Below, piece after piece: positions 4,847 to 32,943 of a stretch of 34,178 bases of DNA. The notes below the pieces were generated by a model that did no database searches, was not told the origin of the DNA, and saw nothing but the letters and a program-made list of their open reading frames with translations. The stretch is taken from positions 1-34,178 of the forward strand of contig WFSJ01000018.1 of the NCBI GenBank assembly GCA_015486055.1. Reading direction: 5' to 3'. Made by a program: the position numbers and the translations under genes. The stretch's first letter is position 1, and every line of letters begins with the position of its first letter. The DNA is from Acidobacteriota bacterium. GTDB taxonomy: Bacteria; Acidobacteriota; Aminicenantia; S016-38.

Positions 4847-5932
4847 TCATGACCTTATGGGCATTACAACATAAAGATATTTTAGACCCTCATTTAGAGG
4901 CTCAAAAACAACAGCTTTCCCTACTTCTTGTGTATAGAATTTTATAAGGTCTGAATCAACAGTGCTTAAGAATTCTATTATGTATCTCGGATTAAATAAA
5001 ATCCCAAAGCTTTCCCCTGAATAATCCATCTCCATTTCTTCTTTAAACTCCCCAAGGTCTGGATTAAGGGATTTCACCGTTAATTTCCCCTTTTCTAAAA
5101 GAAAATCAACTCCAGAAACTCTTTCATCTATAATTATTGAAGCCCTCTTTATTGCCTCAAGAAGGGAGTCTTTATTCATTATAGCTTCGTAGTTAATCTC
5201 CTCTGGAAATACAGCTTTATAGTTTGGAAATTTTCCTTCTACTTTGGAAACATTCATAATTTTTCCATCAAACTCAAAGAATATATTTCTCTCATCCTCT
5301 CCTATTGAAATTGTCTTTTCCTCTGTTTTCTGCAGCTTTGAAAGAACATTTTTCAATATCTGATATTCCTTTTCTTCTGGAAATTTATATTCTTTTTCAA
5401 CGTAGGAAAGCCTATGTCCATCAGTTGAGATCATAATGGCCTTCCCTTCTGACAGCTTAAATAAAACTCCATTTATCACGAAACGGTTGTCTTTTACATT
5501 GATAGCAAAGTAAGTTTTTCTTATAAATTCCTTAAATATTTCCGAGGGAAAATCTTTTATGTCAAATCTCGGAGTCGGAAATTCTGGAAATCCTTCAGGT
5601 GAAGAATACAAAATTTTGAAAGGGGATTTTCCATCGCTTACTTCACAATGGTTTGGAGTAAGTGTTTTTATTGAAAAATTTTCTGAGGAGAAGGACTTTA
5701 TTATTTCATATAATTTCCTTCCATCTATTTCTATCTTTCCATCTTCTTGCACATCAGCATCAAACTTTATCCTTATTCCTATTTGAAGATTTGTTGCTCG
5801 AATTTCAAGGGATTTTTTCTCAGCTATCAAAAGGATATTTGAAAGGTTCGGATTTATTATTCTCCTTTCAATAACATCCTGAAGAGGGGTTAAATTTTCT
5901 ACCATTTTTTCTTTAGAAACTTTTATCCACAT
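4847..5932 (-). CDS. dnaN: DNA polymerase III beta subunit (sliding clamp)
   Basis: 361 aa, close to the usual 365-375. It forms the dimeric ring that tethers the replicative polymerase to DNA. The three-fold repeat of clamp domains can be followed: residues 1-120; about 125-245 with the FVINGVLFKL and STDGHRLSYV signatures; and about 246-361 ending in the typical YLYVVMPIRS C-terminus. An in-frame GTG at 5938 exists, but the AAGGAGA site lies directly against it and 6 nt before the ATG at 5932, so the ATG is preferred. A perfect DnaA box overlaps this start codon. It lies 120 nt downstream of dnaA, same strand. Confidence 0.97.
   Translation of the reverse strand: MWIKVSKEKMVENLTPLQDVIERRIINPNLSNILLIAEKKSLEIRATNLQIGIRIKFDADVQEDGKIEIDGRKLYEIIKSFSSENFSIKTLTPNHCEVSDGKSPFKILYSSPEGFPEFPTPRFDIKDFPSEIFKEFIRKTYFAINVKDNRFVINGVLFKLSEGKAIMISTDGHRLSYVEKEYKFPEEKEYQILKNVLSKLQKTEEKTISIGEDERNIFFEFDGKIMNVSKVEGKFPNYKAVFPEEINYEAIMNKDSLLEAIKRASIIIDERVSGVDFLLEKGKLTVKSLNPDLGEFKEEMEMDYSGESFGILFNPRYIIEFLSTVDSDLIKFYTQEVGKAVVFEPLNEGLKYLYVVMPIRS
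5923..5931 (+). promoter_or_regulatory. Consensus DnaA box overlapping the dnaN start codon
   Basis: TTATCCACA, an exact match to the E. coli high-affinity DnaA box, within the codons Met-Trp-Ile of dnaN. The best-matching box in the window. Confidence 0.65.
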
Positions 5933-5983
5933 TTCCACTCTCCTTTATTTTTCTTCTTCTATTTTACCAATAATATACAAAGA

Positions 5984-6021
5984 CATAAAGTAATAATAAA
6001 GAAATGAGGAAATGTGGAAAA
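5984..6021 (-). other. dnaA-dnaN intergenic DnaA box with AT-rich trio-like stretch (candidate unwinding element)
   Basis: Minus strand TTTTCCACA (6021-6013) is followed by a CCTC-containing 13-nt spacer and then TTATTATTACTT (5999-5988), which resembles the repeated trinucleotides (CTA/TTA reading) after the last DnaA boxes in B. subtilis oriC. The remainder of 5933-6052 is AT-rich and holds no gene. The spacer is longer than in B. subtilis, so the trio assignment is tentative. Confidence 0.4.
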
Positions 6022-6052
6022 CACTTTAAACAAGGGTTTTTGACTGTTGAAA

Positions 6053-7357
6053 TCATCTGAAAAACTCCTCAATTTCTTCAAGTTTTCTATTGAGCTTTTC
6101 ATCCCTTTCCTTCATTTCCTCTATTTTCTTTATCGAATGGAGAACTGTAGTATGATGTTTTCCACCAAAGTTTACCCCTATTTCTGTAAGGGGTAGATTC
6201 AGTATCCTTTTAACCAAATACATTGCGACCTGTCTTACAAAAGCAATTCTTCTAATATTGGTTTTCATCTTTATTTTTTCTGGGTTCTCTATTCCAAAAC
6301 TTTGACATACACTTTCTATTATTTCATCTACTGTTGTTTTTGCCTTAGCTTCTTCGTTTACTTCTGCTATTGTTTTTAGAGCCTCCTTTGTAAGAGAGAT
6401 TGAGACAGGTTCATTTTTTAAGGTAGAAAGAGCTTTAAGTCTTATAAGAGCACCTTCAAGTTTTCTAACATTGGACTTTATCTTTATTGCAATATATTCT
6501 GCTACATCCTCAGGAATGGGAAAATTCTCAAATTCTGCTTTCTTGAGCAGTATTGCTATTCTTGTCTCAAGTTCTGGTGGTTGAATATCGGCAATTAGGC
6601 CCCATTCAAATCTAGAAAGAAGCCTATCCTCAAGTCCTTCTATATTTTTTGGGGGTCTATCACTTGAAAGAACTATTTGCTTTTGCGAATCATATAATGT
6701 GTTAAAAAGATGAAAGAGCTGAATTTTTGTTTGTTCCTTCCCTGACAAGAACTGTATATCATCTATTAATAGAACATCTATTTTTCTGTATTTCTCTTTG
6801 AAATCTATAATCTTATCGTTTCTTAAGTATGTCACCATTTCATTCATGAATTTTTCAGTTGTAGTGTAAATAACAATAAGTTCAGGCCTATTATTTATTA
6901 CAAAATGGCCTATAGCATTCAAAAGATGTGTTTTTCCCAGCCCAACATCCCCATAAATAACCAATGGGTTATAACTTTTACTTGGAGATTTCGCTACAGC
7001 CAATGCAGCAGAGTATGCAAACTGGTTTGAAGAGGCAACAACGAAGTTCTCAAATGTATACTTTGGATTTAGTATTGTGGTTATCTTTTTCCTATCCTGC
7101 TTTTTTGTTTCCTCCTCGCTTTCCTCTTCGTGAAAAATTTTTACCTCATAGTTTTTTTTAAGAACTTCCGTAATTACAAGATGGAAAATATCCGGGAAAT
7201 TTTCTCTGAACATCTTCTTAAAACTCGGACTCGGAGCTCTTACATAAAGGACATTTCCCACCTTTCCTACATATAGCAAGGGCATAAACCAAGTCTCAAA
7301 AGAGAAAGGGTCTACCCTTGATTCAATTTCCTTTAATATATCTTTCCATATCTTCAT
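6053..7357 (-). CDS. dnaA: Chromosomal replication initiator DnaA
   Basis: 434 aa. Domain I is residues about 1-75 (IWKDILKEIE, SFETWF motif). A short acidic/basic linker, residues about 76-95, is domain II. The AAA+ domain, about 96-330, has Walker A GDVGLGKT (136-143), Walker B LLIDD (196-200) and the sensor/arginine-finger segment DRLLSRFEWGL. Domain IV has the DNA-binding signature with FGGKHHTTVLHSIKKIE. An in-frame GTG at 7375 is open, but the alignment-typical start is the ATG at 7357. That ATG has no ribosome binding site and abuts a cluster of DnaA-box-like nonamers, which suggests autoregulation by DnaA. The upstream gene stops only 39 nt away. Confidence 0.97.
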   Translation of the reverse strand: MKIWKDILKEIESRVDPFSFETWFMPLLYVGKVGNVLYVRAPSPSFKKMFRENFPDIFHLVITEVLKKNYEVKIFHEEESEEETKKQDRKKITTILNPKYTFENFVVASSNQFAYSAALAVAKSPSKSYNPLVIYGDVGLGKTHLLNAIGHFVINNRPELIVIYTTTEKFMNEMVTYLRNDKIIDFKEKYRKIDVLLIDDIQFLSGKEQTKIQLFHLFNTLYDSQKQIVLSSDRPPKNIEGLEDRLLSRFEWGLIADIQPPELETRIAILLKKAEFENFPIPEDVAEYIAIKIKSNVRKLEGALIRLKALSTLKNEPVSISLTKEALKTIAEVNEEAKAKTTVDEIIESVCQSFGIENPEKIKMKTNIRRIAFVRQVAMYLVKRILNLPLTEIGVNFGGKHHTTVLHSIKKIEEMKERDEKLNRKLEEIEEFFR

Positions 7358-7388
7358 TTTCCACAAAATTTCCACAATATGTGGAAAA
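7357..7388. promoter_or_regulatory. Cluster of three DnaA-box-like nonamers at the dnaA start (oriC/autoregulation candidate)
   Basis: Plus strand TTTTCCACA (7357-7365) and ATTTCCACA (7368-7376), then the inverted TGTGGAAAA (7380-7388). The last two form a perfect inverted repeat TTTCCACA-ATA-TGTGGAAA (7369-7387). The cluster fills the gap between dnaA and its upstream neighbour. Confidence 0.6.
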
Positions 7389-7396
7389 CCTACATT

Positions 7397-10177
7397 TTAA
7401 AAGTCATATCCTATCCAGAAATTGTAGACTGAAAACTTATTGGATTGTAAATCTGTTCTCTTTACATACTCAATATGTATAGGAAAAGAAAACAAGAAGA
7501 ACTCCAGTCCATATCCATAAGAGGCTATGGCGTCAACAAGCTTTATATTCGGAAAGTTTCCTTCTGCAAACTTAAATGGAAGCCCAGGCAATCTTGTTCC
7601 ACCAATATCAAAGAAGAAAACCCCCCTCACAGGCCCTATATTCCCTATAGGTGTGATTGTTATATATGTTATTGGAAAGCGAAATTCAGCATTAAAATAG
7701 AAAGTCTGGGTACCAACAAGATACCTGTAGCCAACACTTCTTATTTCATTATTTCCCCCGATAAAATCATAGAAGGGAGTTTTACCGAAGCTACCATAAT
7801 AGTATCCTCTAAAAGCAAATAGGAAATCCCTTCCAATGTTTAGGTATTTTCTTGCATCTATTTTCACTGTGTAATTGTCAATTTTGGCAGAATCAAGAGG
7901 GAAAGCTTTGCCTAAGTACAAATTAAAAGTATCCCCTTCAAGGGGCCCGAATTGTTTGAATCTTGTGGTTTCCCTGACAAAACTGAAATCTACATGGAAA
8001 AATTTTCCTGAATAGAAATTTCCTGTTGGAAAGAACCCCCCAGCATCCTCCTTTATTTCCATGGCCCCAACAGATGATTCTATCCTGTGATAGAAGTCAA
8101 TAGGGTAATAGAAGTAAGCATTAGCTCCTGTGATCCTTCTTTGAACCATTGTTGGATAATATCCATAATAATAACCGTAGAAAAAGTAAGTTTTATACTG
8201 GAAAGCATTTAAACTCCACCAGAGCCTTTTTTTCTGGTTCATGTAACCGAAGTGGTAAGACTGGTAGTAATAATCATTGGATGCATAGAAAAAGAGTCTA
8301 TGGTCAGAGAATATATCCGAAAAAGAAATGTATGCAGAGGTGAAAAGCCTACCATCTGTCGAATATGCTATTGTTATTGGAAGGGTAAAATCAGGGGAAA
8401 GTTTTCCAATCCCCTTCCTCAGTTTAATCTTACTCTCTTTTATACTTGCATGGACTTTCTCCCATATTGCTTTTCTGTGCTCTTCTTTGTATTTTTCAAT
8501 TACAATGGGCTCCATTGAGTAAAGCCTAAACATGTTTTTGAAGTAGCCGTTGAAATAGATTTTTCCGTTTTTGAATTGTGGAAAGAAACACCCAGTTGAA
8601 ACATCTGTATATCTTTTAACAATGCCAGTTTTAATGTTCATGGAATATATGTCAAACCCTCCCTCCCGGTTAGAGGAGAAAAGGATATCCTTGCTATCCA
8701 GAAAACTTGGATTTATATCCGCTCCATTTCTAAAGGTTAGCTGTGTGATCTTTTTCATTTCTGGAAAATCAGAGAGGAAAATATGAATTTCCTCTCCTAT
8801 CATTGAAGAAAATGCAATTGATTTACCATCCGCAGAGATTGAAGCTTCTTTTATGTAGTATCCCTTAGGAGAAAGCCTTCTCAACTTTCCCGTTCTTAGG
8901 TTGAGGAGAAAAATATAAGCATTACCCTTTTTAAAACCCACAAATACTATATTTTTCCCTTCAGGTGAAAATTGGGGAGAAGTGGGATTGTATATTCCCT
9001 TCAATTTGTATTCCCTCAGGATCTTTCCCTTAAAGGAGTCAATTACAAATAACCTGTAGTATTTAGTCCTTTTTCCGAAAAACGCAATCCTTTCCCCTTT
9101 CTTATCCCAGGCTATTCCTCTGCCCGTTGCAGGGTCATAGCCCAACCTTATCTTTTGGTATCTTGTTGTCACTCCAGGAGTGATATTTCTTATCTTTTTT
9201 CCATCTCTCATTGATATTAGAACAATATCGTAATCTGCCTGGGAATAGTTGACAGTTAAAATGGCCGCTACTTCGCCGGAGGGTGAAAGCTGATAGGAAA
9301 ATATGTATATAAAAGGAAATCTTGGAGAAATTGGAACGCCATAATCATCTGGCATTGACTTTCTGAGATACTTAGCAAATTTAACCCTTAAATAGTGCTT
9401 GAACCGACTGTTGAAAACTTCCCTTTCAAGGTGAAAAGCACTTCTTAGCGGGTTTCTATATCTTATTATCCTGTCCTTTTTTACCTCCCACCATAGTTTT
9501 CTTATCCCCGTAAGCCCATATTTGTCCCTTATGAAATCGAACATTGCGTGTCCAAAGTCATATGGGACCCTTCCGCTTCCTCCAATTAAACTGCCTGTTC
9601 TTGAAAGCAGGGGAATATTATCGTTAGCAACAGCATCAACAAGAGTCACCACAGGAAATGGCTGCCAATTTCCCGTTGCAAACTCAGCAAATCCTTCCAT
9701 CATCCAGAGCGGAATCTTGATCCTGAAAATTGCAGAGGGAGAAAGCCCCTCATAGAGAAGATAAAATTCGAAGGTATGAGTAAGCTCGTGGTTTATGAGC
9801 CTTTTTAATTCAAAAGGAGGAAGGTCTGCTGGAATGACAACCCTTCTTTTAAAGGGCTCGGAAAACCCAAGAACCTCTTCCGGAACTATTCCTCCGTACA
9901 GATTGGTCTGCTCAAAATCAAAATGGTTTTTGTAGAAAATTATAGGTATTTTTTCCTTGATATCAGCTCCTGTAAGAGCGCGGAGTTTTGAATAGCACTC
10001 TTCTGCGTACTGGAGAATCTCAGGAAGTCTTGTGCTGTCATAAAAAAGTATCCTGAAGTGGGACGAGTCATATTCCTTCCATTTAAAATTGTTGTATATG
10101 ATCTTGTTCTTTCCAAAATAGGGAATCAATTGTGAAAAAAGGAGATAAGGAAGTAAAAGGATAAATATTTTTTTCAT
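7397..10177 (-). CDS. Zinc peptidase (MA-like) fused to TolB-type beta-propeller and C-terminal outer-membrane barrel
   Basis: 926 aa, three parts. A signal peptide (residues 1-15) is followed by a gluzincin-like peptidase domain (about 35-270) with the zinc motif HELTH (130-134) and a downstream WMMEGFAEF segment supplying the likely third ligand Glu161. Residues about 285-560 contain repeated WD40/PD40 (TolB-like) blades with phrases such as LSPSGEVAA, FSPEGKNIVFVG, SADGKSIAFSS and ILFSSNREGGFDIY. From about 600 on there are aromatic, alternating beta strands with an Omp85-like GGNNEIRSVGYRYLVGT segment, ending in Phe as outer-membrane barrels do. It is probably surface or outer-membrane anchored; the substrate is unknown. 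An AAGGTG site precedes the ATG; the gap to the lipoprotein gene upstream is 3 nt. Confidence 0.8.
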   Translation of the reverse strand: MKKIFILLLPYLLFSQLIPYFGKNKIIYNNFKWKEYDSSHFRILFYDSTRLPEILQYAEECYSKLRALTGADIKEKIPIIFYKNHFDFEQTNLYGGIVPEEVLGFSEPFKRRVVIPADLPPFELKRLINHELTHTFEFYLLYEGLSPSAIFRIKIPLWMMEGFAEFATGNWQPFPVVTLVDAVANDNIPLLSRTGSLIGGSGRVPYDFGHAMFDFIRDKYGLTGIRKLWWEVKKDRIIRYRNPLRSAFHLEREVFNSRFKHYLRVKFAKYLRKSMPDDYGVPISPRFPFIYIFSYQLSPSGEVAAILTVNYSQADYDIVLISMRDGKKIRNITPGVTTRYQKIRLGYDPATGRGIAWDKKGERIAFFGKRTKYYRLFVIDSFKGKILREYKLKGIYNPTSPQFSPEGKNIVFVGFKKGNAYIFLLNLRTGKLRRLSPKGYYIKEASISADGKSIAFSSMIGEEIHIFLSDFPEMKKITQLTFRNGADINPSFLDSKDILFSSNREGGFDIYSMNIKTGIVKRYTDVSTGCFFPQFKNGKIYFNGYFKNMFRLYSMEPIVIEKYKEEHRKAIWEKVHASIKESKIKLRKGIGKLSPDFTLPITIAYSTDGRLFTSAYISFSDIFSDHRLFFYASNDYYYQSYHFGYMNQKKRLWWSLNAFQYKTYFFYGYYYGYYPTMVQRRITGANAYFYYPIDFYHRIESSVGAMEIKEDAGGFFPTGNFYSGKFFHVDFSFVRETTRFKQFGPLEGDTFNLYLGKAFPLDSAKIDNYTVKIDARKYLNIGRDFLFAFRGYYYGSFGKTPFYDFIGGNNEIRSVGYRYLVGTQTFYFNAEFRFPITYITITPIGNIGPVRGVFFFDIGGTRLPGLPFKFAEGNFPNIKLVDAIASYGYGLEFFLFSFPIHIEYVKRTDLQSNKFSVYNFWIGYDF

Positions 10178-10180
10178 GGT

Positions 10181-10762
10181 TCACCTTAAAAGATAATGCA
10201 TCATTCTCTTCCTCTGATAGGAAATATCCGACAAAAGGGAAGAGGTCATTCTCTGCAGGACCGCATAAAGGGCGAAAACAGAGGATTCATAGTCCGGGAA
10301 CTTCATCCTTTCCTTCATGCATCTGTGATATTTTATCTCCTTGATTGTAAAGCAAAGATCCATAGAGATAATTTTTACCGGGATCAGCCCGGAACTTAGC
10401 CGCGAATAAGGCATGTATTGTTCATTTGCGGAGATCCCGGAAGAAGTTCTGTCGTAATATGAATATGCATGGCTTAAACTTGCCTTGTATTCCACCGTAA
10501 GTTCAGGTATGCTGTTCCCCTCAGCCACTTTTATTCCTCCCTGACTTTCCAGCTCGTTTTTTATAAACTTTTCCACTTCGCCCTTGAAGTCCTTAATTTC
10601 CACAAACTCGTTCTTAAGCGACTCCTCTTTTACTTCGAGGCGAAGCTTCTTGAGGTGAACATTGATAGAAGGAGGCTTTAAAACCTCCATTTGAACCCTG
10701 AAGACATGGGTACATCCAGAAAGAAAGATGGCCAATAAAACAAAAAGGAAATTCCTTCTCAT
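10181..10762 (-). CDS. Putative lipoprotein of unknown function
   Basis: 193 aa. The N-terminus MRRNFLFVLLAIFLSGC is a textbook lipoprotein signal with lipobox LSGC and acylated Cys17. The mature part is alpha/beta with several Lys/Glu-rich segments, and I do not recognise a family. LptE-like or other small envelope assembly lipoproteins are possible but not supported by a motif. It begins with an ATGA overlap with the TPR gene upstream and stops 3 nt before the peptidase-barrel gene, so the three are almost certainly cotranscribed and probably act together in the envelope. Confidence 0.75.
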   Translation of the reverse strand: MRRNFLFVLLAIFLSGCTHVFRVQMEVLKPPSINVHLKKLRLEVKEESLKNEFVEIKDFKGEVEKFIKNELESQGGIKVAEGNSIPELTVEYKASLSHAYSYYDRTSSGISANEQYMPYSRLSSGLIPVKIISMDLCFTIKEIKYHRCMKERMKFPDYESSVFALYAVLQRMTSSLLSDISYQRKRMMHYLLR

Positions 10763-11121
10763 TTCCTTTTCCTCTTTTCCGAGAGTGTTTTTCCCGATTC
10801 ACCTGTTTTCCTTCCTTCCTTGCTTAACTCAAGGAATATTGCGTAATTGGCTTTTATTTCTCTGTCTTTAGGAGCAAGCTCGAGGGCTTTTTTGTAACAT
10901 TTCTTTGCTTTTTTAAAATTCCCAAGGGCCTCATAGGCTACTGCCATATTATTATAAGCCTGTGCAGTTTTCTTTATCTCAGTTGCCCTCTTGAACCGGT
11001 AAAGAGCCTCTTTCCAAAGCCTCATCTTTGCAGATTTTATTCCGAGATCTATATTGTAATGGTAAAAATTAGGGGAGCAGAAAGGAAGAAAGAAAAGGAG
11101 CAGAAGAACAAAATTCCTCAT
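10759..11121 (-). CDS. Small exported TPR protein
   Basis: 120 aa. A hydrophobic signal (MRNFVLLLLFFLPFCS) is followed by at least two tetratricopeptide repeats: residues about 27-60, and about 58-95 with the phrase YNNMAVAYEALGNFKKAKK then CYKKALELAPKD. The C-terminal tail is Lys/Arg/Glu-rich. The Cys near the signal end is not in a good lipobox, so lipidation is uncertain. An in-frame TTG at 11139 would add six residues, but a perfect TATAAT ends 6 nt before this ATG, so the ATG is preferred. It heads the TPR-lipoprotein-peptidase operon and probably supplies protein-protein contacts for that group. Confidence 0.75.
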   Translation of the reverse strand: MRNFVLLLLFFLPFCSPNFYHYNIDLGIKSAKMRLWKEALYRFKRATEIKKTAQAYNNMAVAYEALGNFKKAKKCYKKALELAPKDREIKANYAIFLELSKEGRKTGESGKTLSEKRKRK

Positions 11122-11133: not shown

Positions 11134-11271
11134 GGACAAATTTCCTAATTACCGAAAGAGAAAAAATTGCAGAAGTTTATTATTCATAAGTATATTGGAA
11201 CTGTAGAGAGAAAAATAGAAAATTAGCAGGATAAAGGTTCGCGACAGGGAGCAAAAACTTAAGCGAATGAG

Positions 11272-11778
11272 CTAAATTATAAGGGAGAGAGCGATTATTT
11301 TCAAAAGATCTCCGGGAATAAAGGGGAGCAAACCCAAATAAATGGAGTTTTTTACTCCCACAAAGAGAGAAAACCACGCCAGGCCCAAGACATAAATAGG
11401 AATGGAGGCCAAGCAGAGGTATAAAAACCTCTTTGGAAGGAGACGGAATTCTCGCTTTTCGTAAAAAAGCCCTGAAAGATAAGCAGCGATTGGAAATCCT
11501 ACAAGGTATCCAGCGGTTGGTCCTGAGAGAAATGCTCCTCCTGCAAAGAAAGGAAGACCCATAGCTCCTCCTGTAATGTATAAAAGAACGGCAGCGGATC
11601 CCTCTTTCTTCCCGAGATATACCCCTAAGAAAAGGACAGCAAAAGTCTGAGCAGTTATTGGAACAGGAGAAAATGTCAAAGGGATGTAAATTCTTGAAGC
11701 AAAAATAAGGAGGATAGTTCCACCAAGTATTTTTATGGCAGAAGATGTAGTTTCATTTATTAAGGCCCTATTATTCAT
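11272..11778 (-). CDS. bioY: Biotin transporter substrate-binding subunit BioY
   Basis: 168 aa, about six membrane helices. BioY is the S-component that binds biotin and can work with an ECF ATPase module or alone. Family marks: PVPITAQTFAVLFLGVYLG (about residues 37-55), GGAMGLPFFAGG, SGPTAGYLVGFPIAAY, and near the C-terminus LPFIPGDLLKI. The C-terminus is slightly short compared with typical BioY proteins of 180-190 aa. It starts with a 4-nt ATGA overlap with the acyltransferase and is the last gene of the long operon. No EcfA, EcfT or biotin synthesis gene is visible here, so energising partners must be elsewhere if used. Confidence 0.9.
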   Translation of the reverse strand: MNNRALINETTSSAIKILGGTILLIFASRIYIPLTFSPVPITAQTFAVLFLGVYLGKKEGSAAVLLYITGGAMGLPFFAGGAFLSGPTAGYLVGFPIAAYLSGLFYEKREFRLLPKRFLYLCLASIPIYVLGLAWFSLFVGVKNSIYLGLLPFIPGDLLKIIALSLII

Positions 11779-12506
11779 TTTTCACCTCTTTTTCTTATCG
11801 TTTTTCCTGGACTCCCAACAATTATACTATATTCATCATATTCTCCCTTTAGGAGAGAGTTTGCACCTACCACACATCCTCTTCTCAGCCTTGTTCCATC
11901 GAGGACAATGACAGAAGCTCCAAGCCAGCAATCTTCTCCTATTTCCACCCCCATAGTTCTTTTTATTCCCTGTTCCACTATAGGAATGTCCCTTCTTTCA
12001 AACTCGTGTTCCCCACCTGCAACAATGTAACAGTGACCTGCAATGAAGCTATTACTGCCGATCTTAATCCTCAAAGTGGAGTATATTGTTACATTAGCTG
12101 AGATGTTAACCTCATTCCCTATCTCAATTTCTCCATCTTTACAGGAAAGTGTTGAATTTCTTGCAAACACGCATCCATCACCTATTTTTATGCCCCCTGT
12201 TTTGGCATCAATCATTGTGTAGTCATCAAAAAAAACATTGTTTCCTACCTCAATTTTCCATGGGTTCCTTATTATCATTCCCCTCCCAAAAGTAACGCCT
12301 TTCCCTATCCTTTTGAAGAGGGACTTGAAAAATATCTTCCTGAGAAGATACCCCAGAGCTCCAGGGATATTGGAGAAAAAGGTTATCACGAATTCATAGT
12401 ATAAGAACCTTAGGAATCCGACTTTTCCACTTGCCAGTTCCCTATATTTCTTAAAGGCTGACCCTCTTTCCTTTAAGATATCCCTTGTTTCATGTGAAAC
12501 ATTCAT
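11775..12506 (-). CDS. Hexapeptide-repeat acyltransferase (LbetaH, WbbJ-like)
   Basis: 243 aa. Residues about 70-235 are left-handed beta-helix hexapeptide repeats (IGKGVTFGRGMII, VEIGEDCWLGASVIVLDGT, RRGCVVGANSLLKG) ending in the typical VGSPGKTIRKRG tail; the probable catalytic His is in the AGGEHEFERRDIP segment. The N-terminal 65 residues include a possible amphipathic or membrane-contact helix (FLRFLYYEFVITFFSNIPG). Such enzymes O-acetylate sugars of LPS or exopolysaccharide, fitting its place right after the Kdo genes. Its second to seventh codons carry a parS-like sequence (Asn-Val-Ser-His-Glu-Thr), so the start region is under two constraints. ATGA overlaps with kdsC and bioY. Confidence 0.85.
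   Translation of the reverse strand: MNVSHETRDILKERGSAFKKYRELASGKVGFLRFLYYEFVITFFSNIPGALGYLLRKIFFKSLFKRIGKGVTFGRGMIIRNPWKIEVGNNVFFDDYTMIDAKTGGIKIGDGCVFARNSTLSCKDGEIEIGNEVNISANVTIYSTLRIKIGSNSFIAGHCYIVAGGEHEFERRDIPIVEQGIKRTMGVEIGEDCWLGASVIVLDGTRLRRGCVVGANSLLKGEYDEYSIIVGSPGKTIRKRGEK
12486..12501. promoter_or_regulatory. parS: parS-like ParB-binding site (copy 1)
   Basis: TGTTTCATGTGAAACA, one mismatch from the widespread bacterial consensus TGTTTCACGTGAAACA. It lies in the first codons of the acyltransferase gene, about 4.9 kb from parB. It shares 15 identical bases with the second copy at 23223. Confidence 0.8.
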
Positions 12507-12970
12507 TTCAAAATCATTTCAATCAGCTCCCTGAGAGCTCCTTCTCCTCCCTTCTTTTTTAGGACTATTTTAGCTTTAACCTTTACTGTCCCCGTAGCAT
12601 CTGCCACTGCAGCTCCTATCCCTGCTTCCTCCATGGCCGGAATGTCCTGGATATCATCCCCCAAGAAGACAGCTTCCCCTTTCTTTATTCCGTATTTTTC
12701 CATAATCTTCTTCATGCTTTTTCCTTTGTCCTTTACCCCAAAATAGACATCCTCTATGCCGAGTTTTTTTGCTCTTTCCTCTGACGTCTTTGAGGGGAGG
12801 CCTGATATTATTGCAATTTTTATCCCCGATTCCCTCGCCAGATGAACTGCCATTCCATCTCTCACATTAAAAGCCTTTACAGGTTCGCTAGATCCCTCAA
12901 AGAAATAGAGTTTTCCATCTGTAAGGGTCCCATCAATATCCACCCCTATAAGTTTTATCCCTCTCAACAT
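12503..12970 (-). CDS. kdsC: 3-deoxy-D-manno-octulosonate 8-phosphate phosphatase
   Basis: 155 aa. A HAD-superfamily phosphatase that removes phosphate from Kdo-8-phosphate, third step of CMP-Kdo synthesis. Motif I is GVDIDGTLTDG (Asp11 nucleophile, Asp13 acid/base), then the KdsC-typical FNVRDGMAV, motif II ISGLPS, motif III Lys in the VKDKGK region, and motif IV GDDIQDIP. The C-terminal GGEGALRELIE matches the KdsC tail that reaches a neighbouring active site. The ATG at 12970 is preferred because a GGAG site lies 8 nt upstream and because it makes a TGATG stop-start junction with kdsD. A longer start at 12991 would add seven atypical residues. Confidence 0.94.
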   Translation of the reverse strand: MLRGIKLIGVDIDGTLTDGKLYFFEGSSEPVKAFNVRDGMAVHLARESGIKIAIISGLPSKTSEERAKKLGIEDVYFGVKDKGKSMKKIMEKYGIKKGEAVFLGDDIQDIPAMEEAGIGAAVADATGTVKVKAKIVLKKKGGEGALRELIEMILK

Positions 12971-13929
12971 CAGAAAAGCTCCGTTCTCCACAGATCATGG
13001 AGATGAAGCAGCCCCTTTAGCCTTCCCCCTTTATCTGGGACAAGAAGGCATGTTATCTTCCTTTCCTCCATAATTCTCAGGGCCTTTGCAGCGAGTTCTT
13101 CCTCATCAATTGTTATTGGGTTAGGGGTCATTATTTCCCCTGCTTTTTTTTGAATAAGGGAGCCTGAACGAAGAAGTGCCCTTCTCAGGTCTCCATCTGT
13201 TATTATCCCTACAAGATGTCCTCTCTCAGAAACAACGGCAGATGTTCCAAACCCCTTTTCATTCATTATTTTTATCACCTTTCCCATTGGGTCCTTTTTA
13301 AAAACAACAGGAAGCTCTTCACCAGAATGCATGAGATTTTTTACCTTCATGAGTTTCTTTCCAATAGCTCCTCCTGGGTGATATTTAGCGAAGTCGTCCA
13401 TTTTAAACCCCCTTTTTACCATAAGGGCAATCGCCAGCGCATCTCCGATCGCAAGAGTTGCCGTGGTTGATGCGGTTGGGACAAGGCCAAAGGGAGAGGC
13501 TTCCCTACTAACGCCTGCATTTATTGTTACATCCGCATTCCTTCCCAAAGATGAATTAATATCGCCTGTTATTGCAATCAGGTTCAGTCCAAGCCTTTTT
13601 ATGAAGTAAATAAGTCTTGTTATTTCTTCTGTTTCTCCACTATATGAAACTGCTATTATTATGTCTTCTTTTTTTATCATCCCCAGGTCACCGTGGACGG
13701 CATCAGCGGCATGGATGAAAATGGAGGGGGTTCCTGTGGAGGATAATGTGGCCGATATTTTTCTTGCTATGAGGCCGGATTTTCCAACCCCCGTGAGTAT
13801 TACCCTTCCCTTACATCCTGCTATTGCTTCCAAAGCCTTTTGAAATTTTTCCCCGAGATTTTCCCTTACTTTCTTTAGACCTTCTTCCTCTATTTTTATA
13901 GTTTCCTTTCCCGCCTCTAGTTCCTTCAC
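12970..13929 (-). CDS. kdsD: Arabinose-5-phosphate isomerase (KdsD/KpsF/GutQ)
   Basis: 319 aa. It converts D-ribulose 5-phosphate to D-arabinose 5-phosphate, entry step of Kdo synthesis. The SIS sugar-isomerase domain spans about residues 30-185, with LTGVGKSGLIARKISATL, the HAADAVHGDLGMI segment holding the conserved His, and SYSGETEEI. Two CBS domains follow: about 195-255 (VKNLMHSGEELP, GFGTSAVV, GIITDGDLRR) and about 260-318 (EIMTPNPITI). The start is taken as GTG at 13929, which has a GGGAGG site about 7 nt upstream and gives a GTGA overlap with the kdsA stop. A TTG 15 nt further upstream is the alternative. Confidence 0.95.
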   Translation of the reverse strand: MKELEAGKETIKIEEEGLKKVRENLGEKFQKALEAIAGCKGRVILTGVGKSGLIARKISATLSSTGTPSIFIHAADAVHGDLGMIKKEDIIIAVSYSGETEEITRLIYFIKRLGLNLIAITGDINSSLGRNADVTINAGVSREASPFGLVPTASTTATLAIGDALAIALMVKRGFKMDDFAKYHPGGAIGKKLMKVKNLMHSGEELPVVFKKDPMGKVIKIMNEKGFGTSAVVSERGHLVGIITDGDLRRALLRSGSLIQKKAGEIMTPNPITIDEEELAAKALRIMEERKITCLLVPDKGGRLKGLLHLHDLWRTELF

Positions 13930-14738
13930 CTTGTCGCCTCCCAAACTTTTAAAAGCTTCTTGAGGTTTTCTTCAACTTTTGGAAGCCTCATAGAATTTGC
14001 CCCATCAGAAAGAGCTTCCTCTGGCCTCGGATGAACTTCCATGAATATCCCATCCGCTCCTGTAGCTATGCCTGCTTTCGCCATTGTCATTATGAATTCT
14101 GGTTCTCCTCCTGATTTTGAGCCAAGGGCAGAGGGTTTCTGAACAGAATGAGTTGAATCTATAACGACGGGATAGCCCGTTTTCCTCATTATTGGGATTG
14201 ACCTGAAATCGACAACAAGGTTTCCGTATCCAAAGAAAGTTCCTCTTTCAATTAAAATTGCCTTCTCCCCTCCGCTGTGCTCTATTTTTTCTACAACCTT
14301 AAAGATATCCCACGGTGCAAGAAATTGTCCCTTTTTCACGCTGACAGGAACCCCTGTCTTCGCCGCTGCAGTCAGAAGATCGGTTTGGCGTGACAAAAGA
14401 GCAGGTATCTGAATTAAATCTACAACTTCAGCAGCTTTTTTTGCCTGCCATGGCTCGTGGATATCAGTAGTGATGGGGATAGAAAATGTTTCTTTCACTT
14501 TCCTCAGCATTTTCAGGCCTTCCTCAATTCCTGGTCCTCTGAAGGAAGAGATAGAGGTTCTGTTTGCTTTGTCAAAAGAAGCCTTTAAGATATAGGGAAT
14601 TCCGAGTTTCTTCGTTATTTCCTTCATATATTCTCCAATTTCAAACAGAAGATCGAGGGATTCTATCACGCAGGGTCCTGCTATCAGGAAGAAAGGCTCA
14701 GATGGAACCTTTATATTACCTATTTTGAAGCTTTTCAT
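13926..14738 (-). CDS. kdsA: Kdo-8-phosphate synthase, apparently metal-dependent class
   Basis: 270 aa, normal length. It condenses arabinose 5-phosphate with phosphoenolpyruvate to Kdo-8-phosphate. TIM-barrel motifs: IAGPCVIES near residue 20, [35 protein letters not shown], and [12 protein letters not shown]. The Cys in AGPCVIES, with the later DSTHS, MEVHP and LSDG segments, corresponds to the Cys/His/Glu/Asp metal ligands of the Aquifex-type enzyme. The E. coli metal-free class has Asn at the Cys position. It overlaps pyrG by 23 nt; no ribosome binding site is obvious. Confidence 0.96.
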
Positions 14739-16338
14739 ATTTTTTTTTCTTTGCTGCCCTTACAAATTCAACAAATAATGGATGAGGATGAAATGGATTG
14801 GATTTGAACTCTGGGTGGAATTGACAGCCCAAGAACCACGGATGATCCTCTAACTCAATTATTTCAACAAGTTTTGATTCTGGATGTTCCCCTGTTATCT
14901 TAAGCCCGTGTTTTTCAAGAACGCTTCTGTATTCAGGATTGAATTCGTATCTATGCCTGTGTCTTTCCTGAATCTCCTCTTTTTTATAAGCTCTAAAAGC
15001 ATTTGAAGATTTTTTAAGCTTGCATTTATATGTCCCAAGCCTCATTGTCCCCCCAAGCTGGATAACCCCTTTAAGATTAGGAAGAAGCTTGAGAACCTTA
15101 TACGGAGAAGAAGGATCAAATTCCTCGCTGTTGGCTTTCGTCAGCCCTGCTCTATTTCTTGAAAATTCTATTGTGGCGATCTGCATTCCCAGACAGATTC
15201 CGAAATATGGAATTTTGTTTTCTCTTGCATATCTTACAGCTTTTATCATACCCTCTATTCCCCTCTCTCCGAATCCTCCCGGGACTAGAATTGCTACAGA
15301 ATTTGAAAGGAGGGCCTCTGGCCCTTTTTCTATGATTTCTTCTGCTTCAATCCATCTCTGCTTTACCTTGACATTGTTTGCAATTCCACCATGGAAGAGA
15401 GCCTCGTTAAGGCTTTTGTATGAATCCTTAAGCTTTACATATTTGCCCACCATTGTTACCTCAACTTCGTCCACCTGGGATTTCGCTTTATTTACAAGCT
15501 CTTTCCATTTTGAAAGATCTCTTGCCTGCTTGTTCAAATTAAGCATCTTCAGAATTTTTTTATCTAGCCCTTCTCTTGAGAAATTGAGGGGGATCTCATA
15601 GATAATGTCCACATCCTTTGCGGATATAACTGCTTCCTCCTCAACATTCGTGAACAGGGCAATTTTTTTCTTTATATCTAAAGGAAGCTCTCTGTCCGAG
15701 CGGCAAAGCACAAAATCAGGTTGAATTCCGATGGCCCTTAATTCCTTTACTGAATGTTGGGTAGGCTTAGTTTTAAGTTCTCCTGCGCTATTAAGAAAAG
15801 GGACAAGGGTCAGGAGAATATAGACAACATTTTCTTTCCCCTCTTCGAGGCCAATCTCCCTTATTGCCTCGAGGAAAGGCAAACTCTCTATATCCCCGAT
15901 GGTTCCGCCGATCTCCACGATTGAAACATCTACTTTACCTGAGAATTTTCTTATGGCTTCTTTTATCTCATCTGCCACATGCGGAATGACTTGAACTGTT
16001 TTTCCGAGATAATCACCTTTTCTCTCCTTGTTTATTATTGACCAGTATATTTTCCCTGCAGTGTAATTGCTTTGCTTTGTTGTCATAAAACTAGTGAACC
16101 TCTCATAATGACCGAGATCAAGGTCAGTTTCTGCTCCATCTTCAGTGACGAAAACCTCCCCGTGCTGAAATGGGCTGAGGGTTCCGGGATCAACATTTAG
16201 ATAAGGGTCAATTTTTTGCATGGAGATTTTAAGACCCCACGCTTCCATCAAAGCCCCGATACTCGCAGCAGCAACTCCTTTTCCCAGGGAGGAAACAACA
16301 CCACCTGTTACAAAAATATATTTAGTTCTTTTTGCCAC
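14716..16338 (-). CDS. pyrG: CTP synthase
   Basis: 540 aa, full length. It makes CTP from UTP with glutamine nitrogen. The N-terminal synthase domain (about 1-265) has [13 protein letters not shown], the [20 protein letters not shown] segment and [14 protein letters not shown]. The glutamine amidotransferase domain (about 290-535) has [12 protein letters not shown], the nucleophile Cys in FGICLGMQ, and the His-Glu pair in [18 protein letters not shown]. The start is GTG with AGGAGG 7 nt upstream, inside the end of kdsB (17-nt overlap). Placement among Kdo genes is sensible because CMP-Kdo synthetase, encoded just upstream, consumes CTP. Confidence 0.98.
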
Positions 16339-17029
16339 AAATTACCTCCTCTATCTTTTTTACATCCTCCTGGGTATCAACAGAAAAGGAAATTCCATCC
16401 CATCTTACCATTTTTATCTTTTCCCCACTGGAGATCAGCCGCAACTGTTCAAGTTTTTCGGAAATTTCAAGAGGAGATTCAGGGAGAGATAAATATTTGA
16501 GAAGACCTTCCCTTGAGTATCCATAGATTCCCACATGCTTTAAGAAAGGTCCCCCATAGGGAATAGGGGACCTGGAAAAGTATATGGCATAATCGTTGCT
16601 ATCCATTACAACTTTCACCCTGTTTGGGTTATCCTCTTCCTCTTCTTTCATTTCACAAAAAAGGCTAACGAAATTTTCCCCCTTTTCAATGGCTTCCGCC
16701 ACAAGATCGATGGCCTCCCCTTTTATTAGAGGTTCGTCCCCTTGGATGTTTATATAGGCATCCGCCTTAAATATCCTTGCAACTTCTCCAACTCTTTCTG
16801 TCCCACTTTTGCATTTATCAGAGGTAAGAACGGCTTTCCCACCCCATTTTTCAACTTCTTTCTTTACAGATTCCTCATCTGTGGCAACTATTACCCCTGA
16901 GATTTTCTTCGCTGAGTATATCCCTTCAATTATCCTTGCGATCATGGGCTTTCCGCATATATTCCTTAGCACCTTTCCAGGGAATCGGGTAGAAGCGTAT
17001 CTTGCAGGAATAACCCCTAAGATTTCCAT
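16322..17029 (-). CDS. kdsB: CMP-Kdo synthetase
   Basis: 235 aa. It activates Kdo with CTP to CMP-Kdo, the donor for lipid A glycosylation. Nucleotidyltransferase motifs: [16 protein letters not shown] (residues 6-21) for CTP binding, [17 protein letters not shown], and the metal-binding NIQGDEPL. Later segments [15 protein letters not shown] and [10 protein letters not shown] with DTQEDV are typical of KdsB. It overlaps bactofilin by 13 nt and pyrG by 17 nt. With kdsA, kdsD and kdsC in the same operon, the whole path from ribulose 5-phosphate to CMP-Kdo is encoded. Confidence 0.96.
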
Positions 17030-17385
17030 TCCTTCTCTATCTCCTTGGATACTTCTTCCTTTGGCAGAACCCTCGCCTCCCCTTTATATCTTGCCCCTTC
17101 CTTTATTGAAAGAACCGGAGAAATAACGTCAGCATTTATCCTAGCAGTTTCCTCAAATTCCACCTTTTCCTTGGCAAATATCTTTCCTTTTACTCTTCCG
17201 CTTATCACAATTTCTCCAACAATGATTTCGCCGTCAATTTCCCCCTTTTTTCCCACGATTATGTCTGAAAGACTTTTTATCTTCCCTTTAATTTTTCCAT
17301 CCAGTCTGAGGGGGTTTTTTGCCTTTATATCACCGATTATTTCTGTGCCTTCATCTATATAAGCGAGGAAAGGGGATTCACTCAT
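17017..17385 (-). CDS. Bactofilin (polymer-forming cytoskeletal protein)
   Basis: 122 aa. The repeated short beta-strand pattern (TEIIGDIKAKNPLRLDGKIK, IVGKKGEIDGEIIVGEIVI, SGRVKGKIFAKEKVEFEE, INADVISPVLSIKEGA) is the right-handed beta-helix of bactofilins (DUF583), with short charged tails. Bactofilins self-assemble without nucleotide into filaments that scaffold cell-wall enzymes; in Myxococcus they also position ParABS components. Here the gene overlaps parB by an ATGA and kdsB by 13 nt, so it is coupled to both segregation and envelope-sugar genes. A role linking chromosome-pole positioning with envelope growth is an inference. Confidence 0.92.
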   Translation of the reverse strand: MSESPFLAYIDEGTEIIGDIKAKNPLRLDGKIKGKIKSLSDIIVGKKGEIDGEIIVGEIVISGRVKGKIFAKEKVEFEETARINADVISPVLSIKEGARYKGEARVLPKEEVSKEIEKEWKS

Positions 17386-29566: not shown

Positions 29567-30110
29567 GGAGGAGTATTTCAGGAAAATTGAAGGGGCCTGG
29601 AGGCGGTGGAGCAGATTTTTATTCCTTTCCAGTAGGGATATGGAATTCCTTGAGGAACTCTGGTTGGAGAGGATTCCTCTTGATGTGGTTTTAAGGAGTT
29701 TGGAAGGAGGATTTACAGCTGTATTCAGAAAAAAGAAGAAGAGGATGATAACCCTATGGAATCTAAAAAAAAAGATTTACGGGGAAGAGAAAAAATTCAG
29801 GGAGAAAATGGCAGGCGCAGGGGAAAAATGGCAGGAAATCTTTAGGGTTGAAGGTGAAATGGGAGAACTTCTTAAAAGAGCTCATAGACTACTAAAAGAA
29901 GGACAGGCAGAAAAAGCCCTTGAGCTGGAAGACCTCATTACTGAAAAGATGTGGAAAGAAGCAGCGGAGGATGAAAGGGAAAAGGCCCTGAATTGGGCAA
30001 AGGAAAGGGTTAAGAACCTTAAAATTTCCTCGGAGGCAAAGGAGGAAATCGCCCTCAAGGGCGCCAAAAGACGCCTTCGAGAGAGGAAAAGAATCCCGTT
30101 TATTTTCTGA
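29550..30110 (+). CDS. Unknown helical protein at the end of the mtnA-coaX operon
   Basis: 186 aa, not confidently recognised. It is highly charged and almost entirely helical, without signal peptide or membrane segment. Residues about 20-55 (FLFLSSRDMEFLEELWLERI, then PLDVVLRSLEGGF) resemble a short N-terminal motif common in uncharacterised proteins of Acidobacteriota and Deltaproteobacteria-like genomes. Residues about 70-185 are Lys/Glu-rich and likely form long helices or a coiled coil. The only usable start overlaps coaX by 17 nt. Its 3' end overlaps the end of the convergent kinase gene by 11 nt, leaving no room for a terminator. Confidence 0.75.
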   Translation: MNSIDKEEYFRKIEGAWRRWSRFLFLSSRDMEFLEELWLERIPLDVVLRSLEGGFTAVFRKKKKRMITLWNLKKKIYGEEKKFREKMAGAGEKWQEIFRVEGEMGELLKRAHRLLKEGQAEKALELEDLITEKMWKEAAEDEREKALNWAKERVKNLKISSEAKEEIALKGAKRRLRERKRIPFIF

Positions 30111-32943
30111 GCTCTTCTATCTTTTTCTTCAGAAAGTCCTCATCGGCGCTGGGAGTGGACATATAGAAACTCCTAAGCTCATCTATTCTTCTTTCCACCT
30201 CAGAGAATTTTCCTTCTTTTTTTAAGAGCCTTATTCTGGCTTCAAGCAGAAGAGGATGGTTAGGATTATAGCTAAAGCCATCCTCAAGGGTTCTTCTTGC
30301 CCTGCTTAAAAGGCCCAGTCTTATCTCAGCAAATGCTTTCTGTGCGGTGAAAAATGCCCTTTCGTAAGGGGTTGCCCAGTATCCGAGCTTTTCCTTTATG
30401 TTCATAAGCTTTCCATAATATTCAAGGCCAGATTTGTCCTGTTTTTTCAAGAGACATTCTGCCATGCTTTGAAGGTAATATTTGTAGATTGGGAAATAAT
30501 TCTCTTTATCTATCCTATTCTTCTTTATCACTTTTCCCATCCAGTTGGCTTCTTCACACCCCTTCTTCACATTGTGCTTTTTAAAATATATTAGGGCTGA
30601 GGCCCAGTGAAGTTCCGGTATGAGGTTGTGTGGGTCTTTGGCATCAAAGAGCTTCTTTGCCTTTCTTATATCCTCTTCTGCTCCTTCCATTCCAAGCTCT
30701 TCCCTGAAATAGGCTCTTTGAATATAGGCTCTTGCAAGATTTTTCTTGCCATTTACCATGGACATATAGGTTTTGTTGTAGCTGAATGCCTGCTTTATGG
30801 CTCCCTTGAGGAATAATATGTCCGCTATGCTCCCGTAAACCCAGTCTAAGGAAGGGTCCCTTGCAAGGGCAGTTTCTTTATTGGTAAGGGCCTCTAAGTA
30901 ATTTCCCGAGTAAAAATAACCGTCACCAAGTGAGTCAAAAGCATTGGCCACATCGCTTATGGTTTTGTATTTTTCAAAATACTGAATCCCTTCTAAATGT
31001 TCTCCAAGATAAAGGAAGCAGTATCCCGCATGGTTTAGTGCCGGGGAAAAATCTGGCTTTATCTCCAAAGCTTTCCTGTATTCTTCTACGGCTTTCTTAG
31101 GGGAAGCTCTGTGGAAATAAGCTTCTGCGAGGTTGTAGTATGAGTATTTATCAAAAGGAAGCCTTCGGGCAATTTTCTTGAGGAAATTAATCTTTGCTGG
31201 GAAATTCATTTCAAGCTCTGCCTTTAGAGATTGAATCCTCCATAGATCAAGTTCAAGAAGATTTTCCCTATGAAGAAGGGAAAGGTTAACCTGCTTTCTT
31301 GCACCTGCGGTCTGCTCAAGGAACATGAGGATCTCTGCTTTAAGAAAATGCGCGAGCTGGAATGAACTGTCTTTCTTAAGAGCGAGATTTATATATTTCC
31401 TTGCCCCTGAAACAGAGAGGCTTTCCCAGGCTTTTTTTGCTTTTAGATAATAGATGAGAGATTTGTAATTTCTTGTCAGCATTGTTGTGAGTTTCTTTCT
31501 TTTCCTGAATTTCAGGTTGAGAAGCTTTGCCACTTTTTCTCCAAGGGAATCTATCTGATAAGAGAGAAGTGATTGAATCCCCTCTCCAGAAATGGTTATC
31601 GGGATAATTCTGTCCCCCTGAGAAAGTTTAACCTCTAAGGTGTACATCTTCCCGTATTTTTTTAGCCTCCCGGAGAGAAGACCAATTATATTGTATTTCT
31701 TGAATAGAATTTCCTCTTTTATCCTTTTCCTGAGATCACTGTAAGCCTCTTCGTCTATTATGCTTGTTCCTTCCAAGAGGAGGAGCTTCTGAGAAAGAAG
31801 ATATGAAATTGCAGTTGTGTTATCTTCAGAAATTCCTTTCTCCACCGTAAAGTCCCTTATTACTATATTCTTTAAGCCGGGATTCTTCCCCATATTTAGA
31901 ACAATTATGGCCAACAGAATGGAGACAGCTAAAATTGGAAGAACAATTAATGGAAGTGCCCATTTGCCCCTTTTGGAAGCGGCATAGGTGTTCCCTGGCA
32001 GGGTAGAAGATTGGGAAATCATTGGAGGAGTAAGCTCCTCCAGCTGGTTTAAGGAAGCCAATAGTTCCCCCCCATCCTTAAATCTCCTAAGAGGGTCCTT
32101 TTCAAGGCATTTCATAATTACGGGGTCATATCTTCCTGGGATTTCATCCAATAGATTTGATGGGCGAGGCGGAGTTTCGTGGAGAAGTTTGTAAAAGGTT
32201 GAACCTGTGTCTCCACCACGGAATGGATTCTTCCCTGTAAGCATTTCGTAGAATACAACCCCTAAGGAAAAAATGTCTGTTGAAGGGGTTAATTTTTCTC
32301 CTTTACACTGTTCAGGAGACATATATGCTAAGGTTCCCACAACAGTGTTGGCAGTTGTAAGAGATTCATCGCTCTTGGAAAATTTCGCAAGCCCGAAGTC
32401 AAGTATTTTTACCTGCCCTGCGGGGGTAACCATTATATTAGATGGCTTTATATCCCTATGAATTATTCCTTTACTGTGAGCGAGGGAAAGAGCGCTTGCC
32501 ATCTGCTTTGCATATGAGAGAAAGGAAGAAAGTTGAACTTTGCCATTTTTTTTCAGTATTTCATGCAAGTTTTTCCCTTCTATGAACTGCATCACAATAA
32601 AGTCAACATCATCACTTTCATAGATTTCATGAATTATACATATGTTTTGATGTTCAAGAATTGAGGCGGTTTGTGCTTCTCTTAGGAACCTCCTCCTCGC
32701 TGTATCATCAGATCTTAATTCAAGAGGGAGAATTTTTATGGCCACTCTTCTTTTAAGCTTTATATCCTTAGCTTTGTATATTACCCCCATTCCTCCTTTC
32801 CCTAAAAAATTCTCTATCTTAAATCTTCCTTTTAGAACTTCCCCTGGCTGGAGGTTCTCAATATTTCTCAGGGGGAAGCCACATTTTTGACAGGTGAATC
32901 TTTCATCTGGGTTTTCAGTCCCGCAAAGAGAACACTTTATCAT
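30100..32943 (-). CDS. Zinc-ribbon Ser/Thr protein kinase with membrane anchor and C-terminal TPR domain
   Basis: 947 aa. An N-terminal zinc ribbon (Cys4, Cys7, Cys18, Cys21) precedes a Hanks-type kinase domain (about 41-300). All key residues are intact: glycine loop GKGGMGVIYK, Lys70 in VAIKILP, HRDIKPSN with Asp164, DFGLAK with Asp182, and the MSPEQ activation segment. A membrane helix (about 328-349) separates this cytosolic part from a long outer region: first a TolB-N/FlgO-like alpha-beta stretch (about 355-480), then many TPR units (about 490-920; YYNLAEAYFHRASPKKAVEE is one). It could sense envelope state through the TPR part. It begins with an ATGA overlap with the CxxC protein gene. 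Confidence 0.92.
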   Translation of the reverse strand: MIKCSLCGTENPDERFTCQKCGFPLRNIENLQPGEVLKGRFKIENFLGKGGMGVIYKAKDIKLKRRVAIKILPLELRSDDTARRRFLREAQTASILEHQNICIIHEIYESDDVDFIVMQFIEGKNLHEILKKNGKVQLSSFLSYAKQMASALSLAHSKGIIHRDIKPSNIMVTPAGQVKILDFGLAKFSKSDESLTTANTVVGTLAYMSPEQCKGEKLTPSTDIFSLGVVFYEMLTGKNPFRGGDTGSTFYKLLHETPPRPSNLLDEIPGRYDPVIMKCLEKDPLRRFKDGGELLASLNQLEELTPPMISQSSTLPGNTYAASKRGKWALPLIVLPILAVSILLAIIVLNMGKNPGLKNIVIRDFTVEKGISEDNTTAISYLLSQKLLLLEGTSIIDEEAYSDLRKRIKEEILFKKYNIIGLLSGRLKKYGKMYTLEVKLSQGDRIIPITISGEGIQSLLSYQIDSLGEKVAKLLNLKFRKRKKLTTMLTRNYKSLIYYLKAKKAWESLSVSGARKYINLALKKDSSFQLAHFLKAEILMFLEQTAGARKQVNLSLLHRENLLELDLWRIQSLKAELEMNFPAKINFLKKIARRLPFDKYSYYNLAEAYFHRASPKKAVEEYRKALEIKPDFSPALNHAGYCFLYLGEHLEGIQYFEKYKTISDVANAFDSLGDGYFYSGNYLEALTNKETALARDPSLDWVYGSIADILFLKGAIKQAFSYNKTYMSMVNGKKNLARAYIQRAYFREELGMEGAEEDIRKAKKLFDAKDPHNLIPELHWASALIYFKKHNVKKGCEEANWMGKVIKKNRIDKENYFPIYKYYLQSMAECLLKKQDKSGLEYYGKLMNIKEKLGYWATPYERAFFTAQKAFAEIRLGLLSRARRTLEDGFSYNPNHPLLLEARIRLLKKEGKFSEVERRIDELRSFYMSTPSADEDFLKKKIEELRK

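Follow-up and report, generated by a model that had tools for sequence, protein, structure and literature searches.

Most of what is known of outer-membrane biogenesis comes from Proteobacteria. One described group of Omp85 proteins, WD40-Omp85, has an N-terminal TolB-like propeller and an Omp85 barrel without POTRA domains, and was likened in its published description to a BamA-BamB fusion (Heinz and Lithgow 2014, PMC4104836). In Escherichia coli, the periplasmic zinc peptidase BepA is described as promoting or degrading LptD, probably on the beta-barrel assembly machinery (BAM) (PMC8423444). Here, a three-gene locus was analysed in a stretch of 34,178 nucleotides (contig WFSJ01000018.1, assembly GCA_015486055.1; hereafter the window) from an Acidobacteriota bacterium of the class Aminicenantia. 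The genes encode a TPR protein, a lipoprotein and a fusion of peptidase, propeller and barrel, and are followed by dnaA on the minus strand in that order. The window lies at the end of a 230-kb contig, and the genome, a metagenome-assembled one of the Aminicenantes group, has 1.86 Mb and is 98.87% complete. An earlier reading of the letters alone (the original prediction) had described an envelope operon of these genes, and its three open reading frames (ORFs) are all present on the minus strand, the fusion with 926 amino acids.

Co-occurrence and descent of the three genes

The three genes belong together, and the coupling supposed by the original prediction was borne out by the counts that follow. 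Relatives were obtained by a contig search, the best 80 of 244 being kept, and the comparison used the 71 Aminicenantes loci whose upstream sequence spans at least 1100 bp; nine shorter loci and L148 (wrong frame) were excluded. In 71/71 of these loci the barrel gene has both partner genes upstream. A stricter adjacency rule retains 66/71, the remaining five having overlapping stop-to-stop ORFs in unchanged order. Outside Aminicenantia, where the neighbourhoods of 20 of the 107 ortholog carriers were examined, the trio is present in 11 of the 20 loci of other Acidobacteriota. At one locus (L195, 3836-5041) the TPR protein and the lipoprotein are fused in one ORF. A search of viral contigs gave no relative.

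Among 297 Acidobacteriota genomes, the lipoprotein is present in 125/129 carriers of the barrel ortholog versus 5/168 others (Fisher p about 1e-71, without correction for ancestry). For this count, 18 paralogue-only genomes of the 147 with a barrel match were set apart by hand, with an E-value cut of about 1e-50; when any barrel match is counted, 128 genomes have both, 19 the barrel only, two the lipoprotein only and 148 neither. In further support of the coupling, the distances of barrel protein and lipoprotein are correlated even when dnaA distance is taken into account (partial r 0.75 over 25 loci), and the TPR protein shows weaker correlations (0.46 and 0.39).

Confinement of the trio to one family had been suggested by a single-sequence search, in which the lipoprotein appeared only in its own family (6/60 genomes), and was overturned by the lipoprotein profile. 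Built without the window's family, this profile finds the window copy at 2.3e-5 among 10,152 ORFs and gives 130 matches, equal to the number of the full model; every profile match listed (E above 1e-8, or in the window's family) is at the expected place. The wider spread was missed by the single-sequence search because the lipoprotein evolves too fast. The TPR protein was recovered at 2e-32 by a profile also built without the window's family. Vertical descent of the module is seen in a tree (FastTree) in which 19 of the 71 sequences from Aminicenantes were included.

Predicted architecture of the proteins

The 926-amino-acid protein is predicted to combine a gluzincin-type peptidase with a propeller of TolB type and an Omp85 barrel of 16 strands that lacks POTRA. 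The single chain of peptidase, TolB-like propeller and Omp85-like barrel in the original prediction is upheld by family matches to PF13485, PD40 and PF01103 and by an AlphaFold2 model (AF2; mean predicted local distance difference test, pLDDT, 82.8; predicted template-modelling score 0.79), in which an Omp85 barrel is predicted. The family alignment (A1) comprised 22 of 28 extracted fusions; L028 and L030 (wrong frame) and, by choice, four others were left out. After the signal peptide a conserved PYYGKNK-type motif is found.

In the peptidase domain, H130, E131, H134 and E161 are invariant in 99/99 relatives, seven distant paralogues included, and the HExxH motif with a downstream Glu is that of gluzincins (clan MA, Peptidase_MA_2-like). 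PF13485 (Peptidase_MA_2) matches 18/22 family members at E<=1, with a best value of 2.1e-7, and the window fusion alone at 0.0021, under the family cut-off; positions 2-198 of the 201 in PF13485 are covered in the window's domain. The HExxH motif and Glu161 both sit on helices in the AF2 model. The VIA-align list for the fusion has propellers and barrels only, and as a single domain may take up every place in it, the missing peptidases are uninformative. The propeller is matched by PD40 (2.1e-12 in the window protein), and its closest structure is TolB (3iax; Z 24.8, 242 aligned, 2.4 Å, VIA-align). The modelled barrel has 15 long strands and one short strand within residues 601-922, about 16 strands, and is similar to the barrels of TamA (8us4; Z 21.8, 280 aligned, 3.6 Å) and BamA (Z 21.6). 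PF01103 (Omp85) matches 10/22 family members, the best at 1.5e-11, the window member itself not being matched. The loop-6 motif of Omp85 proteins is (V/I)RG(F/Y). At this position the fusion reads IRS..YR, with Arg813 invariant in 99/99 and the next Gly of the motif not conserved. Sequence searches of the PDB with the barrel, peptidase and lipoprotein profiles gave nothing relevant. The paralogues at L043-L049 (about 25-29% identical, about 1030 amino acids) keep HExxH, the Glu and the key barrel residues, and no trio partners are found near them.

The lipoprotein, which the original prediction had left unrecognised, can now be placed by its predicted fold: it is a fast-evolving protein with a predicted LptE/PqiC/PelC/FlgT/CsgG-type fold. 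Identity is 55-57% within its own family and only 10-23% to counterparts in other families. With the model (pLDDT 90.7), Foldseek gave LptE as best match (1.6e-5), then PelC, TraT and FlgT, and VIA-align gave the uncharacterised 6osx (Z 12.3), PqiC (11.9), LptE (10.8) and PelC (10.0), with CsgG and the TolB N-terminal domain (Z 8.7) in a list running down to Z 8. Among Pfam families, FlgT_M is weakly matched in 16/46 members (best 0.00086) and CsgG once at chance level; PF04390 (LptE) is absent from the best 25 of the 32 families for these 46 members.

The small exported TPR protein of the original prediction is present, and its description is corrected in that it is probably a lipoprotein as well, because the lipobox is clear in Aminicenantia. 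A Cys follows the hydrophobic stretch in 79/83 relatives under a loose lipobox rule, which accepted a few doubtful Cys rows, mostly outside Aminicenantia. The protein has one clear TPR (TPR_1, 5.8e-12) and a second repeat-like stretch.

Proposed role and alternative readings

Other envelope systems are encoded in the same genome. Two further Omp85 ORFs have 775 amino acids (BamA size) and 851 amino acids (TamA-like size), and there are a separate BamD-type gene and LptD. The single PF04390 (LptE) match of the genome is a different ORF, on contig C10. A TolQ-R-A-B-Pal-like operon with its own TolB was read by eye from the ORFs of contig C34. Since genes of BamA, BamD, LptD and LptE type are present along with a Tol-Pal operon, the trio is considered an extra system. 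Its identification as the LptE or BamD of the genome was rejected, both being found elsewhere, and so was its identification as a Tol-Pal component, since the genome has its own Tol-Pal operon and the propeller is preceded by a peptidase and not by a TolB N-domain. A search of the genome with PF01435 (M48) gave two proteins, both apparently membrane-spanning HtpX types and neither of them the fusion; no BepA-like exported M48 protein was found in the genome.

Taking BamA-BamB-BamD, and the action of BepA on LptD at BAM, as analogies, we give an even chance to the proposal that the three genes encode one outer-membrane complex for assembly or quality control, similar to BAM and with its own protease. 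This would be in line with the self-contained proteolytic or assembly machine that the original prediction had supposed. We infer its localisation, physical complex, substrate and the quality-control or maturation role of the peptidase as follows. The Omp85 barrel would sit in the outer membrane, and the N-terminal peptidase and the TolB-like propeller would occupy the periplasmic position that the POTRA domains have in BamA. The TPR and LptE-fold lipoproteins would be anchored next to the barrel, in the manner of BamD and the other Bam lipoproteins around BamA. The complex may handle some of the outer-membrane barrels or lipoproteins that are nascent or stalled: the propeller and the TPR protein would bind the substrate, the barrel would help it insert or would expose it, and the zinc peptidase would cut substrates that fail or need maturation. 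The net picture would be that of BAM plus BepA in one unit. More tentatively, and with somewhat less than even confidence, the trio may be regarded as a third Omp85 machine, in addition to BAM and the translocation and assembly module (TAM), vertically inherited through much of Acidobacteriota, with barrel, propeller and zinc protease in one chain, two dedicated lipoproteins, and assembly and proteolytic quality control as physically one unit. If true, it would provide a simple, testable example of coupled outer-membrane protein assembly and quality control at phylum level, and functions for three proteins that automatic annotation names by TPR, by propeller or not at all.

Several observations weigh against an assembly or quality-control complex of the three proteins. 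POTRA domains receive the substrates in BamA and TamA. None was found in the fusion by Pfam at E<=1, its N-terminal part being peptidase and propeller. In 9/20 sampled loci outside Aminicenantia the partner genes are not beside the fusion. The nine loci make up a single clade within the trio bearers (FastTree support 1.0), so the separation is derived; counting for the complex, in 6/6 genomes examined of the nine the relocated TPR and lipoprotein genes are still paired, beside topA. Four carriers of the barrel ortholog gave no lipoprotein match. Conversely, five genomes have the lipoprotein without the fusion ortholog, the TPR gene adjoining in 4/5; four of the five belong to one genus (L200-L203), in which the barrel gene was lost and dnaA follows the lipoprotein, the TPR gene being found in 3/4. 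No fusion ortholog was found in 168/297 Acidobacteriota genomes, and the module is therefore not essential to the phylum. Finally, the distance correlations given above rest on non-independent pairs.

The chief rival, which we regard as possible and rather unlikely, is a type V-like surface display, in which the barrel would export its own peptidase-propeller part to the surface, the lipoproteins would aid export or plug the pore, and a surface protease serving nutrition or cell contact would result. Such an arrangement is suggested by PlpD, whose patatin domain is described as likewise N-terminal to an Omp85 barrel and exported (PMC4104836). The lipoprotein fold would also suit it, as its matches include LptE and CsgG, lipoproteins that plug a barrel or form a pore, and so would a Salinibacter plasmid protein (L211, 5944-7845) that matches residues 4-530, the peptidase and propeller, at 25% identity in an ORF of 633 amino acids, too short for a barrel. 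PlpD, however, has a POTRA domain and none was seen in the fusion, and vertical descent with the housekeeping neighbours dnaA and topA suits envelope maintenance better than accessory secretion. The Salinibacter protein is annotated as basic secretory protein-like.

A tether for envelope integrity appears improbable. Here the TolB-like propeller would bind peptidoglycan-associated proteins, the barrel would be only an anchor, and the peptidase would trim lipoproteins or peptidoglycan linkers. It is consistent with TolB as the closest structure of the propeller (Z 24.8), and because the N-terminal domain of TolB, which the fusion lacks, is matched by the lipoprotein fold (Z 8.7), fusion and lipoprotein together could rebuild a TolB-like unit. 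A Tol-Pal operon that includes a TolB is already present in the genome, however, and the invariance of barrel residues such as the loop-6 Arg suggests a role for the barrel beyond that of an anchor. The last reading, three unrelated envelope genes as a by-product of position upstream of dnaA, agrees with the 43/74 Aminicenantia loci in which dnaA follows and is hardly credible, being already contradicted by the co-occurrence data: the trio is kept in 71/71 loci, many without dnaA, and in 11/20 outside the class, the pair persists after relocation, and the TPR and lipoprotein genes are naturally fused at one locus.

Surroundings of the locus and comparison with described systems

The features of the locus are given in Table 1. 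The TPR and lipoprotein ORFs overlap by 4 nt, and 3 nt separate the lipoprotein gene from the fusion gene. The longest ORF of the TPR gene starts from TTG at 11139, the ATG at 11121 being the likelier start. A scan for sigma-70 promoters gave 17, versus 16.9 expected, and no promoter is therefore proposed.

Table 1. Positions of the genes, predicted domains and junction elements in the window.
Feature	Position	Strand	Details
TPR gene (probable lipoprotein)	10759..11121	-	120 amino acids from ATG; MRNFVLLLLFFLPFC|SPNFY...
Outer-membrane-type lipoprotein gene	10181..10762	-	193 amino acids; lipobox Cys is residue 17
Peptidase-propeller-Omp85 barrel fusion gene	7397..10177	-	926 amino acids; signal peptide about residues 1-16
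Peptidase domain (predicted)	9362..10078	-	Residues 34-272; Pfam family matches and AF2 model
HELTH zinc-binding motif	9776..9790	-	Residues 130-134
Candidate third zinc ligand Glu161	9695-9697	-	Invariant across relatives
TolB-type beta-propeller (predicted)	8483..9310	-	Residues 290-565; PD40 and TolB fold match
Omp85-type barrel (predicted)	7400..8377	-	Residues 601-926; C-terminal Phe926
Long loop with GGNNEIRS, at the Omp85 loop-6 motif position	7709..7783	-	Residues 799-823
Junction to dnaA	7357..7396	.	Two 9-mers TTTTCCACA (7357-7365 +, 7380-7388 -); stem-loop 7369-7387

The gap of 39 nt to dnaA in the original prediction holds with the dnaA ATG at 7357 and becomes 21 nt with the longest ORF start at 7375. 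Read-through into dnaA, which had been raised as possible, found no support, and neither did any special link to dnaA. The adjacency is lineage-specific, as dnaA lies downstream of the barrel gene in 43/74 Aminicenantia loci and 0/18 of other Acidobacteriota, and a functional tie was rejected on the latter count. The window has five DnaA-box-like TTWTCCACA sites versus 0.92 expected (0/100 shuffles reach five), and four of the five lie around dnaA (5923, 6013, 7357 and 7380). This cluster (5923-7388) is a candidate origin or dnaA autoregulation site. At the junction of same-family relatives, exact TTWTCCACA sites occur in 3/6 and close variants in 3/6. The DnaA-box-like repeats and the stem-loop of the junction would fit dnaA's own control region at least as well as read-through.

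Upstream of the trio, a block conserved in the window's family (11775-17029) encodes CTP synthase, a DAHP-synthase-family protein (KDO-8-P synthase-like), a KDO cytidylyltransferase-like protein, KdsD, KdsC and an acetyltransferase. A BioY gene (11272-11778) lies between the acetyltransferase and TPR genes; it is absent there in L052, L054 and L055, and L053 and L056 have a different ORF of 176 amino acids at its position. A bactofilin gene (17017-17385) adjoins parB. At 30100-32943 lies the gene for a PknB-like Ser/Thr kinase (947 amino acids).

The combination of a TolB-like propeller and an Omp85 barrel is already published as WD40-Omp85, and the fusion agrees with it in having the propeller N-terminal to the barrel and no POTRA (PMC4104836). 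By the main-text description, in which the word 'peptidase' does not occur, it differs in having a peptidase, and it has two lipoprotein partners where the section on WD40-Omp85 names none for the subfamily (PMC4104836). Other Omp85 subfamilies are described there as conserved only at genus level (PMC4104836), versus the phylum-wide conservation of this module. A built-in peptidase, two dedicated lipoproteins and coupling at phylum level did not turn up in a literature search of open-licence papers, preprints excluded; a search for work on the Aminicenantes envelope gave nothing relevant. The group named 'Omp85-metalloprotease' is not considered a precedent, because its family, PF00149, is presumably that of the metallophosphoesterases. 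PF00149 is the definition of the group given by Heinz and Lithgow (PMC4104836).

The lipoprotein shares its predicted fold with the LptE, PqiC, PelC and CsgG lipoproteins and, unlike LptE, has no PF04390 among the Pfam families listed. With PlpD (type Vd secretion) the fusion has in common an enzyme N-terminal to an Omp85 barrel, and it differs in its peptidase and propeller, the lack of POTRA and the dedicated lipoproteins. BepA, of family M48, also has TPRs and is, like the trio in its inferred function, a zinc peptidase tied to outer-membrane barrel assembly; the peptidase of the fusion is of a Peptidase_MA_2-like family and is covalently joined to the Omp85 barrel. As in the BAM complex, an Omp85 barrel, a propeller, a TPR lipoprotein and a further lipoprotein are brought together, whereas the trio has no POTRA, its propeller is covalently fused, a protease is built in, and BamA- and BamD-type genes are located elsewhere in the genome.

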